DNA from: Clostridia bacterium
GTDB taxonomy: Bacteria; Bacillota; Clostridia; Christensenellales; Borkfalkiaceae
Direction of reading: 5' to 3'
NCBI GenBank assembly: GCA_017504655.1
Contig: JAFVQT010000038.1
Coordinates: 1-40,804, forward strand
DNA: 40,804 nt
In this document: one piece after another, positions 7,401 through 38,729 of the stretch
Layout: each line of letters starts with the position of its first letter
Numbering within the stretch: the stretch's first letter is position 1
The notes under the pieces: model-generated
Database searches by the model: none
What the model saw: the letters and a program-made list of their open reading frames with translations, nothing else
Told to the model about the DNA's origin: nothing
Made by a program: the position numbers and the translations under genes

Positions 7401-7850
7401 ATGTCAATTAATGATTGGTACAAAACGGACGACTTTTCTTGCTTACAATGTGGACTTATTTACGGTACAAACGCAAAAAACATTTATGATGAATGTTGTA
7501 AAAATTTGGGCTGGGATCAAAGTAATTCAAAGCATTTTGGCCGTCAAAAACCGTTATACGCGATGTCTTGCGATTCAGAAGGGGACGACGTTTGGTTTAT
7601 CTGTTATCCAAATTATGATACAAACAATTTAAACAATGTTGTTGCTGACAAGCACGTGGTCAACTTAATTCAAGATAGTGGAAACAAAATTATCGAAACG
7701 GTTGAAAATCGTATAGGAATGTCACATGTCGCAAACAGAATAACTTTTGTTAAAACCAAAGACGGATATAAGTTTTTAGGCGTTTATAGAATTGTAAAAA
7801 ACGGAACTACCAGGGAGTACGAAAGAGTAAGCAAATTTTATCCTTATTAA
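7401..7850 (+). CDS. Small protein of unknown function under XRE control
   Basis: 149-aa protein I do not recognise with confidence. The start at 7401 is chosen over the upstream ATG at 7374 because AGGAGATT (7389-7396) sits right before it, and because the upstream ATG would fall at the transcription start. The protein has cysteines near the N-terminus (CLQCG), an acidic and aromatic middle, and a C-terminal stretch, GYKFLGVYRIVKNGTTREYERVSKFYP in outline, that recalls small beta-barrel DNA-reader modules of restriction-type proteins (weak impression). There is no signal peptide or membrane segment, so it is cytoplasmic. It is driven by a perfect promoter that overlaps a palindromic operator and is divergent from an XRE repressor: a tightly repressed, inducible gene. 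Its 3' end carries the same double-hairpin module as the gene at 8246. Confidence 0.7.
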   Translation: MSINDWYKTDDFSCLQCGLIYGTNAKNIYDECCKNLGWDQSNSKHFGRQKPLYAMSCDSEGDDVWFICYPNYDTNNLNNVVADKHVVNLIQDSGNKIIETVENRIGMSHVANRITFVKTKDGYKFLGVYRIVKNGTTREYERVSKFYPY

Positions 7851-25912: not shown

Positions 25913-27850
25913 TTACCAAAGCTCTAAATCTTTTACCTGCTTTTTAACCATTGCGATGAAGTCTTCTACCTTCATCTTGCCGATGTCGCCTTTGCCACGT
26001 TGACGTACGGCTACCTCGCCGTTTAATGCCTCTTGTTCGCCGATAACGAGCATATAGGGCAACTTCTCGAGCTGAGCATCACGAATCTTCTTACCGATTT
26101 TTTCGGGACGAAGGTCTTTTTCGGGACGAAGACCTGCATCTAAAAGCATATCGAATACCTTGTTGCAGTAATCCTCGCTCTTTTCGGAAATATCCATAAT
26201 TCTTGCCTGTACGGGTGCCATCCAAAGTGGAAGCGCGCCTGCATATTTTTCAAGAACCAATGCAAGAGTTCTTTCGTAGCAACCGAGTGACGTTCTGTGA
26301 ATTACGTAAGGATATTTCTTCTCTCCGTCGTCGTCGGTATAAACCATGCCGAATCTCTTTGCAAGCTGGAAGTCAATCTGAATAGTGATAAGCGTATCCT
26401 CTTTTCCAAATACGTTTTTTATTTGAATATCAAGCTTTGGTCCGTAGAAGGCAGCCTCACCGTCAGCCTCGGTGTATTCTATGCCAATATCGTCGAGTAT
26501 TCCGCGCATTGCGTCCTGAACATTTTCCCACTCTTCCTCTGAGCCGATATATTTTTCCTTGTTATTTTTATCCCACTTGGAAAAACGGTAGCTTACGGAA
26601 TCGTCAAGACCAATTGCCTTAAGCATATAAACGGCTAAATCAAGACAGCCCTTGAACTCCTCTTCAAGTTGAGCGGGAGTACAAGCCAAGTGACCTTCGG
26701 AAATAGTAAACTGTCTTACCCTTATAAGGCCGTGCATTTCGCCCGAATCCTCGTTTCTGAACAAGGTAGAGGTTTCGCCAAAGCGCATTGGAAGGTCCTT
26801 ATAGCTTCTCGGTCTATTGAGATATACCTGAAATTGGAAAGGACACGTCATAGGACGGAGAGCGAAAACCTCTTTATCCTTGCCCTCTTCGCCCATAATA
26901 AACATACCCTCTCTGTAATGATCCCAGTGACCTGAAATCTTATAGAAATCAGACTTTGCGAACAATGGGGTTTTGGTTAAAATATAACCTCTTCTGTACT
27001 CCTCGTCTTCTACAAAGCGCTGTAAAACCTGAATAGTCTTACTACCCTTTGCAAGCATAACGGGAAGACCTTGACCTATCGTATCAACGGTAGTAAAATA
27101 CTCTAACTCTCTACCAATTTTATTATGGTCACGAAGCTTTGCCTCTTCAACAGCTTTTAAGTATTCCTCAAGCTGAGCCTTTTTCTCAAATGCCGTGCCG
27201 TAAATACGGGTAAGCATCTTATTTTTAGAATTGCCTTTCCAATATGCACCGGTAACGGACGTAAGCTTAAATGCCTTGATAAGACCGGTTGAAGGAAGGT
27301 GAGGTCCTCTGCAAAGGTCGGTAAAATCGCCTTGCTTGTAGAAGGAAATTACACTGCCCTCGGGAAGCTCCTTTATAAGCTGAACCTTATATGGCTCGCT
27401 GTATTTTTTCATAAGAGCTAAAGCGTCTTTTCTAGAAAGCTCAAATCTTTCAATCGGAAAATTGCACTTTATAATCTTATTCATTTCTTCTTCTATTTTT
27501 ACAAGGTCATCTTGCGAAATAGGAGTTTTAAAATCGATATCATAGTAAAAACCGTTATCTACGGTAGGACCAATTGCTAAAGCGCAGGTAGGATAGATAG
27601 ATTTTACTGCTTGCGCCAAAACGTGAGCGCAAGTATGACGGTAGATATTGAGTGCCTCGGGATCTCTCATTGTAACGATAATTACGTCGGAATCCTCGTT
27701 CACGGGATAAGAAAGGTCGACTAAATTGCCGTTTACCTTGCCTGCTATGGCGTTCCTTCTCAAGCCCTCGCTTATAGCTTGGGCAATACCACCAACCGTG
27801 GTGCCTTGTGCAAGCTCTAATACAGAGCCGTCTGCAAGTCTTATATTCAT
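25913..27850 (-). CDS. thrS: Threonyl-tRNA synthetase
   Basis: Charges tRNA-Thr with threonine. 645 aa from the ATG at 27850, the normal length; that start is chosen because AAAGGAG precedes it and the protein begins MNIRLADGS, while the longer frame from 27892 adds 14 unlikely residues. Domain order: TGS (1-60), editing domain with HTCAHVLAQAV and CRGPHLPSTG, class II catalytic core (MTCPFQ with the zinc Cys, RFGE, motif 3 HRTSLGCYERTLALVLE) and the anticodon-binding domain. Controlled by a T-box more than 600 nt upstream; an array of structured repeats lies between. Confidence 0.97.
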   Translation of the reverse strand: MNIRLADGSVLELAQGTTVGGIAQAISEGLRRNAIAGKVNGNLVDLSYPVNEDSDVIIVTMRDPEALNIYRHTCAHVLAQAVKSIYPTCALAIGPTVDNGFYYDIDFKTPISQDDLVKIEEEMNKIIKCNFPIERFELSRKDALALMKKYSEPYKVQLIKELPEGSVISFYKQGDFTDLCRGPHLPSTGLIKAFKLTSVTGAYWKGNSKNKMLTRIYGTAFEKKAQLEEYLKAVEEAKLRDHNKIGRELEYFTTVDTIGQGLPVMLAKGSKTIQVLQRFVEDEEYRRGYILTKTPLFAKSDFYKISGHWDHYREGMFIMGEEGKDKEVFALRPMTCPFQFQVYLNRPRSYKDLPMRFGETSTLFRNEDSGEMHGLIRVRQFTISEGHLACTPAQLEEEFKGCLDLAVYMLKAIGLDDSVSYRFSKWDKNNKEKYIGSEEEWENVQDAMRGILDDIGIEYTEADGEAAFYGPKLDIQIKNVFGKEDTLITIQIDFQLAKRFGMVYTDDDGEKKYPYVIHRTSLGCYERTLALVLEKYAGALPLWMAPVQARIMDISEKSEDYCNKVFDMLLDAGLRPEKDLRPEKIGKKIRDAQLEKLPYMLVIGEQEALNGEVAVRQRGKGDIGKMKVEDFIAMVKKQVKDLELW

Positions 27851-27898
27851 AACAAATCTCCTTTGTTTTAATTCTATATTATTGTTTGTCAACTTAAC

Positions 27899-27937
27899 GG
27901 CAACATGACTGCAACGTGACGTTGCGTCCGTGTTGCC
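27899..27937. repeat. Two-step hairpin just upstream of thrS
   Basis: GGCAACA/TGTTGCC outer stem, 5x5 internal loop, GCAACGT/ACGTTGC inner stem with 1-nt centre. The inner 15-mer (27911-27925) recurs inside repeat copy 3 (28280-28294). Confidence 0.75.
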
Positions 27938-27958
27938 CCGTATCTATATCAAGCAAGT

Positions 27959-28460
27959 TTTTAAAGGTGGAGAAACGAGATAGGCGAGGCTCGACTTAAG
28001 TTAGCGGACACAATAGACCTCTGTGGTCATTGTGGTCGAGAACTTAAGGCAGTAACGACGCATACCGAAGTTTATACGCCTTTAAATAAAGGGGGAGAAA
28101 CAAGGTAGGCTAGGCTCGTAAGACTTTTACGGATGGGATAGACCTCTATGGTCATCTCATTCGGAAAAGGATTACAGAAACGACGCATACCGAAGTATAT
28201 AAGCCTTTAAATAAAGGGGGAGAAACAAGGTAGGCTAGGCTCACAAATTGGTATTGGATGGGATAGACCTTGTTGGTCAGCAACGTGACGTTGCATCCGT
28301 GTATTTAGCCTAACTCTTACAAAGTGAGTTTTAAAGGCTTAGATGCGAGCACACCAAGGCTCGTGAGCCCGAAAAGACTTGGTTGACCTTGGTGGTCACC
28401 AAGGTTTTGAGGGCGAAACAGTAAACGCAGGTGTGCGACGTATATAAGCCTTTAAATAAA
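27959..28460 (-). repeat. Four tandem structured leader repeats between T-box and thrS
   Basis: Degenerate units of about 105-125 nt: copy 1 27959-28080, copy 2 28081-28205, copy 3 28206-28310, copy 4 28329-28450. Copies 2 and 3 share 37 identical bases at the left end (28081-28117 and 28206-28242). Each unit has a hairpin with constant GACC/GGTC, a 5-nt loop, a 1-nt bulge on one side, and an outer stem that differs between copies but stays paired (CACAAT/ATTGTG, TGGGAT/ATCTCA, CTTGGT/ACCAAG; copy 3 is interrupted). Copy 4 also has a closing stem AAGGCTTA/TAAGCCTT plus GCACACC/GGTGTGC. Strand given is that of thrS transcription; the real sense is unproven. No open reading frame fits. Confidence 0.75.
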
Positions 28461-28462
28461 AA

Positions 28463-28690
28463 AATCGCCCTCTGTGTTAACAACACATAAGGACGAAATA
28501 AGCTTCCGTGGTTCCACCTTATTTACCGCATAAGCGGTCACTTTGTATACCGATTAGGGCTCGGGAATGCCCTCGCGCAGGACAGTGGTTTGACTTTTTC
28601 GCCTAAACTGCTCACCTCTCAGCCATGGGCAAGCTCTCTGTAAAGCCGTACGAAAAGCTACTTGTCTTTCCTCTAACGATTGTAGTTGTA
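28463..28690 (-). promoter_or_regulatory. T-box riboswitch of thrS
   Basis: tRNA-sensing leader on the minus strand. The conserved T-box AAGGTGGAACCACGG is at 28520-28506. The terminator stem (28496-28465, arms around TGTGTT/AACACA) is followed by a run of seven T. In stem I the 5' side has the AGTA loop-E element, and the opposite strand carries ACC (28589-28587) preceded by AA and followed by A, a fitting threonine specifier codon. When uncharged tRNA-Thr binds, the antiterminator forms and thrS is read. The specifier assignment is inference from position. Confidence 0.88.
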
Positions 28691-28696
28691 TATCTA

Positions 28697-28724
28697 ATTA
28701 TATATACTTAATTTTTTTTGTCAA
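28697..28724 (-). promoter_or_regulatory. Promoter of the T-box/thrS transcript
   Basis: Minus strand: -35 TTGACA (28724-28719), 16-bp spacer, -10 TATAAT (28702-28697). The -35 lies inside the 3' end of the gene ending at 28708. Confidence 0.75.
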
Positions 28725-29448
28725 CCGTTTTAGACAAACTTTCGTTTAAAAAAATCACTCGCTTGCCAAAAAATCTCTTAAGCTCCTTTTCCTCGCGGGA
28801 GGAAACTGCCTTCACCACCTCAACGCTTGAGCATGGCGATAAAAGAGCTTCCTTAACAACGTCGGGTGATGAAGATATTAAATTGGAGCGTTTAAGTCTG
28901 TTAAAATTCATATCATAGACGTAATCGCCCTCTATAAACACCTTTTTACCTCGCTTTTCACCCAGAACAAACGCCACAAAATCGCAAAGCTGACTGCCCG
29001 TAAAGAAAAACGGAATATACGATATAACCTCTTTCCATTTGTTTTTTAAAGGCTGCAATCTGAAATTGTATATTCCGTCTATAGCAAAGCCGTTAAAGGC
29101 TTTAAGCTTGCGCATAACGTATCTTTTGTCGGCATCAACGTCTGCGGATATTATAGCAGTCTTTAAAATCTCATTTTCGTACGGTGTAAGACCTATCGTT
29201 CGCATTCTGGACTTTATAAAATCGTATTTGTATTTTACTGCTATGACGTCTGCGATTTTATCCTCAACCTCTGATTTGTATAAATCATAATACTTTTCGG
29301 GGCATAATATGACAATTTTTAATCTGTCCCCTACGCTACCCTCATGTACTTCCCCTCCAAAATCGCTGACAAGCTGACTAATGGCAGAGGAAATATACGA
29401 AATTCCTATCTCTTCACCCGCTAAATCTGTTATTTCAATTTTCTTCAT
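28708..29448 (-). CDS. Probable YtxC-family sporulation protein
   Basis: 246-aa soluble protein. No motif of a known enzyme. The pattern matches the YtxC family of endospore formers: a middle with NGFAIDGIYNFRLQPLKNKWKEVISY, then GSQLCDFVAFVLGEK, and a C-terminus SPDVVKEALLSPCSSVEVVKA...ELKRFFGKRVIFL, which corresponds to the family's conserved end. Assigned by pattern memory, so moderate confidence. Start: ATG at 29448 is used; a TTG at 29475 would add nine residues, and neither has a clear ribosome site. It lies 42 bp after the P-type ATPase gene and may be co-transcribed with it. Confidence 0.6.
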   Translation of the reverse strand: MKKIEITDLAGEEIGISYISSAISQLVSDFGGEVHEGSVGDRLKIVILCPEKYYDLYKSEVEDKIADVIAVKYKYDFIKSRMRTIGLTPYENEILKTAIISADVDADKRYVMRKLKAFNGFAIDGIYNFRLQPLKNKWKEVISYIPFFFTGSQLCDFVAFVLGEKRGKKVFIEGDYVYDMNFNRLKRSNLISSSPDVVKEALLSPCSSVEVVKAVSSREEKELKRFFGKRVIFLNESLSKTVDKKN

Positions 29449-38192: not shown

Positions 38193-38266
38193 GCGGGTGT
38201 AGTTCAATGGTAGAACCCCAGCCTTCCAAGCTGGTCGCGTGGGTCCGATTCCCATCACCCGCTCCA
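38193..38266 (+). tRNA. tRNA-Gly (anticodon TCC)
   Basis: Cloverleaf with acceptor GCGGGTG/CACCCGC, anticodon stem CCAGC/GCTGG around loop CTTCCAA, and encoded CCA. First of six tRNAs in one transcript. Confidence 0.97.
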
Positions 38267-38319
38267 GATTACAAGTTTGGTTAAGTAATGGGTTTCTGCC
38301 GGCACATATCGTAACACAT

Positions 38320-38396
38320 GCGCCTGTAGCTCAGCTGGATAGAGCACCGCCCTTCTAAGGCGGGTGTCAGGGGTTCGAATCCCTTCAGGCGCGCCA
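38320..38396 (+). tRNA. tRNA-Arg (anticodon TCT)
   Basis: Acceptor GCGCCTG/CAGGCGC, anticodon stem CCGCC/GGCGG around CTTCTAA, T-loop GGTTCGAATCC, encoded CCA. Confidence 0.97.
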
Positions 38397-38400
38397 GCAT

Positions 38401-38478
38401 GGCGGGAGTAGCGCAGATGGTTAGAGCGTCAGATTGTGGTCCTGAAGGTCGTGGGTTCGACTCCCATCTCCCGCCCCA
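38401..38478 (+). tRNA. tRNA-His (anticodon GTG)
   Basis: Acceptor GCGGGAG/CTCCCGC with the extra 5' G (38401) facing C73 that marks tRNA-His; anticodon loop TTGTGGT; encoded CCA. Only 4 bp after tRNA-Arg. Confidence 0.97.
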
Positions 38479-38487
38479 TTAACATAT

Positions 38488-38562
38488 TGGGGTGTCGCCA
38501 AGCGGTAAGGCACTGGATTTTGATTCCAGCATCCGTAGGTTCGAATCCTGCCACCCCAGCCA
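38488..38562 (+). tRNA. tRNA-Gln (anticodon TTG)
   Basis: Acceptor TGGGGTG/CACCCCA, anticodon loop with TTG in ATTTTGATT, T-loop GGTTCGAATCC, encoded CCA. Confidence 0.97.
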
Positions 38563-38572
38563 ATGTTAACAT

Positions 38573-38648
38573 GGTCCATTAGCTCAGGCGGTAGAGCACA
38601 TGACTTTTAATCATGTTGTCCGGGGTTCGAGTCCCCGATGGATCACCA
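38573..38648 (+). tRNA. tRNA-Lys (anticodon TTT)
   Basis: Acceptor GGTCCAT/ATGGATC (one G.U pair), anticodon stem CATGA/TCATG around CTTTTAA, encoded CCA. Confidence 0.97.
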
Positions 38649-38653
38649 TATAT

Positions 38654-38729
38654 GCACCTTTAGCTCAGTTGGTAGAGCAACTGACTCTTAATCAGTGGGT
38701 CCTGGGTTCGAGTCCCCGAAGGTGCACCA
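38654..38729 (+). tRNA. tRNA-Lys (anticodon CTT)
   Basis: Acceptor GCACCTT/AAGGTGC, anticodon stem ACTGA/TCAGT around CTCTTAA, encoded CCA. Together with the TTT species both lysine codons have a dedicated tRNA. Confidence 0.97.

Follow-up and report, generated by a model that had tools for sequence, protein, structure and literature searches.

The window analysed here is the whole 40,804-nt stretch of contig JAFVQT010000038.1 (GenBank assembly GCA_017504655.1), from a Clostridia bacterium of the family Borkfalkiaceae. Its thrS frame has an alternative ATG start at 27848–27850, preceded by AAAGGAG. Between thrS and its T-box leader lies an array of three full repeat units, one left half unit and two copies of a shorter module (module B; Table 1). 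Module B consists of GCAACG-TGA-CGTTGC followed by ATCC or GTCC and is found elsewhere in the genome as well. The T-box, which the initial annotation had placed just upstream of thrS in the sense of the gene, is matched by Rfam model RF00230, with a score that lies below the 93-bit gathering score. Its terminator has a long loop and is missed by strict terminator scans, and the T-run of this terminator (an A-run on the plus strand) directly adjoins the right end of unit 4. The only promoter-like site found in 27850–28760 is located upstream of the T-box, which means that transcription of thrS would pass through the array.

Table 1. Features of the thrS locus, in window coordinates
Feature	Position	Strand	Basis and remarks
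thrS ORF	25913..27892	-	listed frame, TTG start
Leading module B, head of array	27894..27959	+	sequence; GCAACG-TGA-CGTTGC hairpin plus variable spacer
Full unit 1	27960..28086	+	model match, 121.5 bits; 127-nt identical twin on contig C37
Full unit 2	28085..28211	+	model match, 110.1 bits
Left half unit (copy 3 of the initial annotation)	28212..28279	+	ends after GGTCA
Internal module B, in place of the absent right half of copy 3	28280..28329	+	sequence
Full unit 4	28330..28456	+	model match, 128.7 bits
thrS T-box terminator hairpin	28466..28495	-	by eye; T-run 28458-28464
thrS T-box leader	28486..28677	-	RF00230, 72.5 bits, E 1.4e-15
thrS promoter-like site, TTGACA-16-TATAAT	28697..28724	-	promoter scan; 12/12 consensus

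The array was originally described as four degenerate units of about 105–125 nt. The repeats are real, but the unit is 127 nt long and only its apical third had been caught. Within that third, GACC-5 nt-GGTC is present where it had been placed, as are the single unpaired base preceding GACC and the outer 6-bp stems CACAAT/ATTGTG (28009–28034), TGGGAT/ATCTCA (28134–28159) and CTTGGT/ACCAAG (28378–28403). The third copy, previously read as carrying a 16-nt insertion, is instead the left half unit joined to the internal module B. RF00230 matches only the leader itself and nothing inside the repeats (27894–28456). No Rfam 15 family reaches its gathering score over the repeats in the whole window and 20 loci of relatives, and no match at E up to 5 covers the units of the window. 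A U6 match at chance level (E 2.2), at 27853–27904, reaches into the start of the leading module B. Elsewhere in the window, six tRNA genes (RF00005) are clustered on the plus strand at 38193–38726.

The repeats are strongly structured. Each unit is one long hairpin, and 33 full units of the source genome fit a single fold: (i) an outer helix of 12 pairs plus 3, (ii) a 6-pair helix with a conserved mismatch and (iii) a conserved internal loop followed by a long apical helix that ends in A-GACC-N5-GGTC. These units derive from 56 anchors, which gave 39 full units after 4 without bounds were skipped and others, with module B, were set aside; two exact duplicates were removed to give alignment A1 (37 units), and four rows with odd or truncated ends (L032:8459, L034:12989, L039:8844 and L042:7413) were taken out to give alignment A2 (33 units). 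In the 33 units 92.4% of cells are paired, compared with 74.2% after partner shuffling, and 285 cells show double changes, compared with 95; neither value is reached in any of 500 shuffles. Changes on both sides are seen for 30 of the 44 pairs. Further pair types give no excess over the shuffles (64 versus 61.9, reached by 138/500). Sliding the partner by 1–3 columns lowers pairing to 31.5–45.2%; this control removes the relatedness that shuffling leaves in, but favors the structure, since the structure was derived from the same rows. Alignments A3, A4 and A5 were fitted to the model; in the wider alignment A4, 90.4% of cells are paired and 40/44 pairs change on both sides. Distant members differ in the sequences of helix 1 and the apical helix and keep the internal loops, the unit length and the pairing. 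The earlier proposal of selection for a folded nucleic acid is supported.

The strand under this selection is the plus strand, antisense to thrS. G.T cells outnumber A.C cells by 67 to 9 in the 33 units and by 188/35, 74/16 and 77/37 in wider sets, and this excess indicates that folding of the plus strand is what selection keeps. One pair is G.T in every one of the 33 units. With DNA parameters, the plus strand folds better than its complement in 33/33 units (−27.5 versus −21.1 kcal/mol). Note that the complement folds too (−38.7 versus −47.6 kcal/mol), which counts against reading the unit as a single-strand DNA element.

The thrS array is one site of a dispersed family. In the 1.78-Mb source genome, unit model R1 gives 61 matches with E no higher than 0.01 (E-values of the models are rough), and blastn finds 43 pieces. 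R1 matches occur in 24 of 61 genomes searched: 13/15 of the genus (the source genome included), 10/22 of the rest of the family and 1/24 of other families of the order. A broader model, R2, identifies carriers in 79/297 genomes of the order, distributed over 28 of 126 genera and 13 families, and in 26/398 genomes of a draw from the phylum, again including the source genome. One carrier is a sheep-colon Clostridia MAG. Copy numbers run from 0 to at least 57, the scoring cap, among genomes of one genus, and of G019 and G036, which share a genus, the former has none and the latter 44; counts are lower bounds for searches of more than 40 genomes, where the best 57, 11 or 8 candidates per genome were scored. 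Contigs C9, C12, C21, C32, C33, C39 and C48 of the source genome end in or beside arrays, so the assembly breaks there and copies may be undercounted. We rejected phage or plasmid cargo as an explanation: R1 has no match in 18 viral pattern loci, R2 has none in 7, and blastn searches with two units return nothing from plasmids or phages. No earlier description of a 127-nt family was found in Rfam or in one open-licence literature collection, where the search was not sequence-based.

This distribution bears directly on the suggestion that the repeats form a second layer of thrS control acting after T-box read-through. A unit does follow the thrS T-box terminator in the source genome (G000), G003 and G021, with pieces in G010. 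Among 30 fetched thrS loci, some of them cut by contig ends, those three are the only ones with an R1 match between T-box and thrS; the leaders of G001, G002 and G009 are empty, G003 and G021 hold one unit each, and the R1 match in G001 sits at the 3′ end of thrS. T-boxes directly before a unit are also seen in G003 (L123), G021 (thrS) and G537 (L218), and in four genomes a unit comes directly after just 3 of the 24 T-boxes. That is not a convincing enrichment, and the T-box link is incidental or weak. Given a fold that is antisense to thrS, copies dispersed over the genome and leaders that lack units, we reject the view of the repeats as a T-box appendix and regard a thrS control layer as highly improbable. 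The thrS of G011 is merely 59% identical to that of the source genome, and the thrS match in G005 is split into two pieces that overlap and differ in frame, one of which contains stops.

The initial annotation had reasoned that copies scattered with no link to thrS would mean a simple dispersed repeat. Scattered they are, but a simple dispersed repeat they are not. Its final alternative, a mobile repeat with a local expansion, is supported; overall, its observation is confirmed in part and its interpretation finds partial support.

Related units and related sites both speak to this point. Unit 1 and its twin on contig C37 are identical at 127/127 positions, while their right flanks agree at 62% and their left flanks at 75%, against a background of 57% (sd 4). 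Among the 37 units of the source genome compared (not all 61 matches), 28 of 666 pairs are at least 93% identical; right flanks are at most 65% identical in 21 of the 24 such pairs that could be measured, and left flanks, where module B lies, remain similar in some cases. Comparison of occupied and empty orthologous sites reveals about one unit extra beside the stop codon, as in G007 L121 versus G000 L034. At eight orthologous occupied sites, the unit may be less alike than its flank (site A, units 64–87% and flanks 92%; C, 62 versus 84%; F, 70 versus 82%; parts of B and D), about as alike (G and H) or more alike (E, 87 versus 71%; one D pair, 100 versus 90%). These values show that a site can persist while the type of unit in it is exchanged. 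Nested half units and arrays also occur. We infer from these patterns that the units are mobile, and the element is best read as non-autonomous. No clean target duplication is seen at the orthologous sites compared, where flanks are too diverged. By eye, right ends have no fixed adjoining motif. As candidate terminal inverted repeats, TTTAAAGG/CCTTTAAA occurs in most of the 33 source-genome units, but helix 1 differs between genera.

Positions of the right ends were examined at 78 sites (50 in G000, G001, G002, G003 and G007, and 28 in G036), a count that leaves out some contig-end sites without a right flank. At 45 of them (30/50 in the genus set and 15/28 in G036) the right end falls at −12 to +8 nt from an antisense gene's stop codon, an interval picked after a first look at the data, compared with 502 of 15,600 random intergenic positions (3.2%). 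Genes are naive ORFs, of at least 90 aa for these counts and 60 aa for the neighbor-gene groups below. In 19 of the 45 cases the distance is −5, which puts the final five bases of the gene, including its stop codon, inside the element. The right-hand gene is antisense at 67/78 sites, on the same strand at 7/78 and absent at 4/78. Right ends also abut terminators: 7/50 do so under strict criteria, including one that also counts as a stop-codon site, compared with 63 of 3,000 random positions over whole stretches, and the thrS T-box terminator is an additional case by eye.

This placement invites a reading in which the unit is a 3′-end element of leading-strand genes, its mRNA-sense hairpin protecting or ending the transcript behind the stop codon, as REP elements are said to do. 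The 45 stop-codon sites fit, and by eye two comparisons of orthologous sites (L056 versus L126/L130 and L078 versus L119) have an intrinsic terminator in the empty relative and none in the occupied one. Against it, the A.C mismatches fall on the mRNA strand, no T-run follows the fold, the element at L079 keeps a terminator beyond it (by eye), and the 7/78 sites with a co-oriented right-hand gene still keep the strand of their contig. We therefore consider a 3′-end function unlikely.

The strand of the units is tied to replication. The GC skew of the element strand is negative in 38 of 39 stretches (some of them on shared contigs, with L049 and L050, which lack a unit, left out), including 27/27 of the source genome; the sole exception, L122, is slightly positive (+0.016). 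Across G000, G021, G031 and G036, with 201 copies at 144 sites, 82 of 83 neighboring site pairs are on the same strand. The one opposite pair lies on contig C4 of G036 between 86.2 and 145.9 kb and brackets a skew turn at 140 kb, where dnaN is found beside yidC, jag and gidB. The sole strand switch thus spans oriC, and on both sides of it the folding strand points toward the origin, i.e. it is the leading-strand template. Orientation elsewhere is read from GC skew, the origin being located in this one case. Leading- and lagging-strand genes in the same stretches number 371/99 and 224/58, a far less strict split, and gene direction alone leaves the strand lock of the units unexplained. The lock is almost complete in the best-sampled family and weaker outside it. 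Both strands are used on G065 C9, G101 C9, G183 C26 and G235 C2 outside the family, and on G377 C1, G619 C14 and G696 C6 in the phylum draw, contigs on which the origin is not located; 3-kb skews outside the family are negative at 10/17, 18/25 and 7/7 loci.

Near-complete polarity from the origin in the source family is also what one would expect of a polar chromosome signal (for a fork barrier, segregation or repair) that a host protein reads. Such a signal is hard to reconcile with copy numbers that range from 0 to at least 57 within one genus, with the contrast between G019 (none) and G036 (44), two genomes of one genus, or with nested half units and arrays, and we think it very unlikely.

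A functional RNA deserves more weight, without becoming a likely explanation. Here the plus strand would be transcribed, the 127-nt fold would bind a protein or ligand, and copies would have spread because they are useful. Strand-specific G.U pairs, the wobble that is invariant in 33/33 units and the constant length are as expected for an RNA; internal loops with GA-rich sides are kept across families (by eye), and loops conserved over the phylum suit RNA as well. Transcription of the plus strand, however, would run head-on to replication and mostly antisense to the neighbors, and Rfam holds no relative. Sigma-70-like sites directed into the plus strand occur in 10 of 49 left flanks, no excess over the 0.31 per shuffled site, and on the other strand in 24/49. 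As far as the sigma-70 consensus tells, this argues against locally made plus-strand RNA.

Three candidate enzyme families were searched for in 37 genomes, a set that covers part of the carriers and excludes G031 and G036. Y1 transposase domains are found in 14/37 genomes, G000, G002 and G007 among them, and in none of the copy-rich G001, G003, G006, G010 and G021, although G001, G006 and G010 are only 80–83% complete and a Y1 gene could have been missed in these MAGs. RVT_1 reverse transcriptases are present in 8/37 genomes, with none in G000, G002, G003, G007 and G021. An integron integrase (TIGR02249) exceeds the cut-off in 0/37. None of the three tracks the copies over the 37 genomes, and all three were rejected as movers. 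Sub-cut-off tyrosine-recombinase matches are common (31/37 genomes and 14/14 control genomes), so a divergent enzyme may be present; the mover may also be an enzyme outside these families or lie in an assembly gap. No mover gene recurs beside the sites. The groups that do recur comprise ABC transporters, leucine-rich-repeat proteins, small helix-turn-helix ORFs, a group that has no Pfam match and partly overlaps units, and four that are each confined to a single stretch; none was accepted as a mover.

How do the units compare with known repeat systems? In integrons the folding strand of an attC site is antisense to the gene, the site lies directly behind the stop codon, and the R-box ends follow the consensus RYYYAAC/GTTRRRY. 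The units share with attC sites a folding strand that is antisense to the right-hand gene (67/78) and lies on the leading-strand template, and often a place at the stop codon of that gene. The R-box consensus is found in 0/33 units in the end 25 nt of either strand. Both are imperfect hairpins with unpaired bases, and in sedentary chromosomal integrons attC bottom strands lie on the leading-strand template in 25 of 30 cases, which is explained by lower excision (PMC5371416). The units differ in that they are scattered over the chromosome with no cassette array, conserve their internal loops and length, and occur in genomes of which none of 37 has an integron integrase over the cut-off. We suggest that the units may work most like attC sites, a likeness rather than a class assignment.

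Other systems resemble the units less closely. BOX and MITE-like repeats of Firmicutes are intergenic mosaics of modules with tandem units, and we know of no replication lock in them; the units resemble them in being modular, tandem and intergenic, a likeness of layout. REP/BIME elements, which have a Y1 transposase, TnpA-REP, are intergenic palindromes of 20–50 nt that occur in many copies, in combinations and in tandem, behind a tetranucleotide that is most often GTAG (PMC8266576). The units are likewise numerous, palindromic and intergenic and come combined or in tandem, but are 127 nt long with long-range pairing and a strict replication strand, Y1 genes do not track their copies, and G[TG]AG, which takes in GTAG and GGAG, is present in the first 20 nt of 7/33 units. 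IS200/IS605 elements have subterminal hairpins (PMC6006769); IS608 and ISDra2 transpose as single strands and follow replication, with the active strand on the lagging-strand template (PMC5371812). An orientation that follows replication is common to both, whereas the better-folding strand of the units is on the leading-strand template, opposite to the IS608 type, and no transposase tracks the unit copies. The T-box is a neighbor at thrS, a separate feature on the opposite strand. Assignment of the units to T-boxes, attC sites, REPs or, given the carriers that lack RVT_1, group II intron derivatives was rejected.

With a probability of about one in two, we favor the following view: the array at thrS belongs to a dispersed, replication-locked family of 127-nt hairpins, its better-folding strand is antisense to thrS, and the family probably spreads and persists as a DNA element that folds when single-stranded, instead of controlling thrS as an RNA. 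The plus strand, when single-stranded, would fold into a substrate for a host or foreign enzyme. Exposure would remove copies with the folding strand on the lagging-strand template and spare those with it on the leading-strand template, as has been argued for attC sites of chromosomal integrons; this precedent favors a single-strand DNA element held in a protected orientation. Gene ends could be the least harmful places for insertion or could be targeted. At thrS, one such insertion would have come to lie behind the T-box terminator, and the leader would carry it as baggage.

A wider proposal is more tentative, and we hold it to be rather doubtful: the units may belong to an undescribed, phylum-wide, attC-like system of single-strand DNA hairpins that operates without an integron integrase, in which, at the ends of ordinary chromosomal genes, hairpins would be copied, swapped on the spot and lost, each time to the exact base, and replication direction would keep the folding strand hidden. 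Dispersed repeats as such are no rarity, but here a 127-nt fold recurs across many families of the order and across the phylum, is tied to the replication strand almost throughout in the best-sampled family, and is placed at stop codons. Such a family lends itself to studying how single-strand DNA elements are shaped by replication. With 82 same-strand pairs to 1, and with units swapped at orthologous sites, it becomes testable which enzyme recognizes the fold and when the strand is single. Annotators should be aware that the arrays break assemblies and can pass for leader RNAs.

Several further structures accompany the units. A recurrent module with a hairpin like CCCAAAAATAATTG..GAATTTTTGGGAAGAGGAGCAAA lies beside half units at L032 8300–9150 (contig C60 of the source genome) and L093 1340–1900, and to the left of units at L111 13633, L126 7695 and L127 7344; it seems to be a further structured component of the mosaic. 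At L115 8920 and L119 13621 the unit sits within a longer outer hairpin whose matching arms carry GCTATGTYACAACG (left) and CGAGTTGTGA (right). At L217 (about 1460–1700), a short hairpin resembling a terminator, GCGCTGATTAGCGC, is present on either side of the unit and is possibly a target duplication. At L042, a different tandem repeat, TATAAACGTCGTTTAGTCGTAAAG with TTTAAAGACGCGTATCTGTCCGCCCC, extends over about 7540–7710, to the left (in the element sense) of the unit at 7414.
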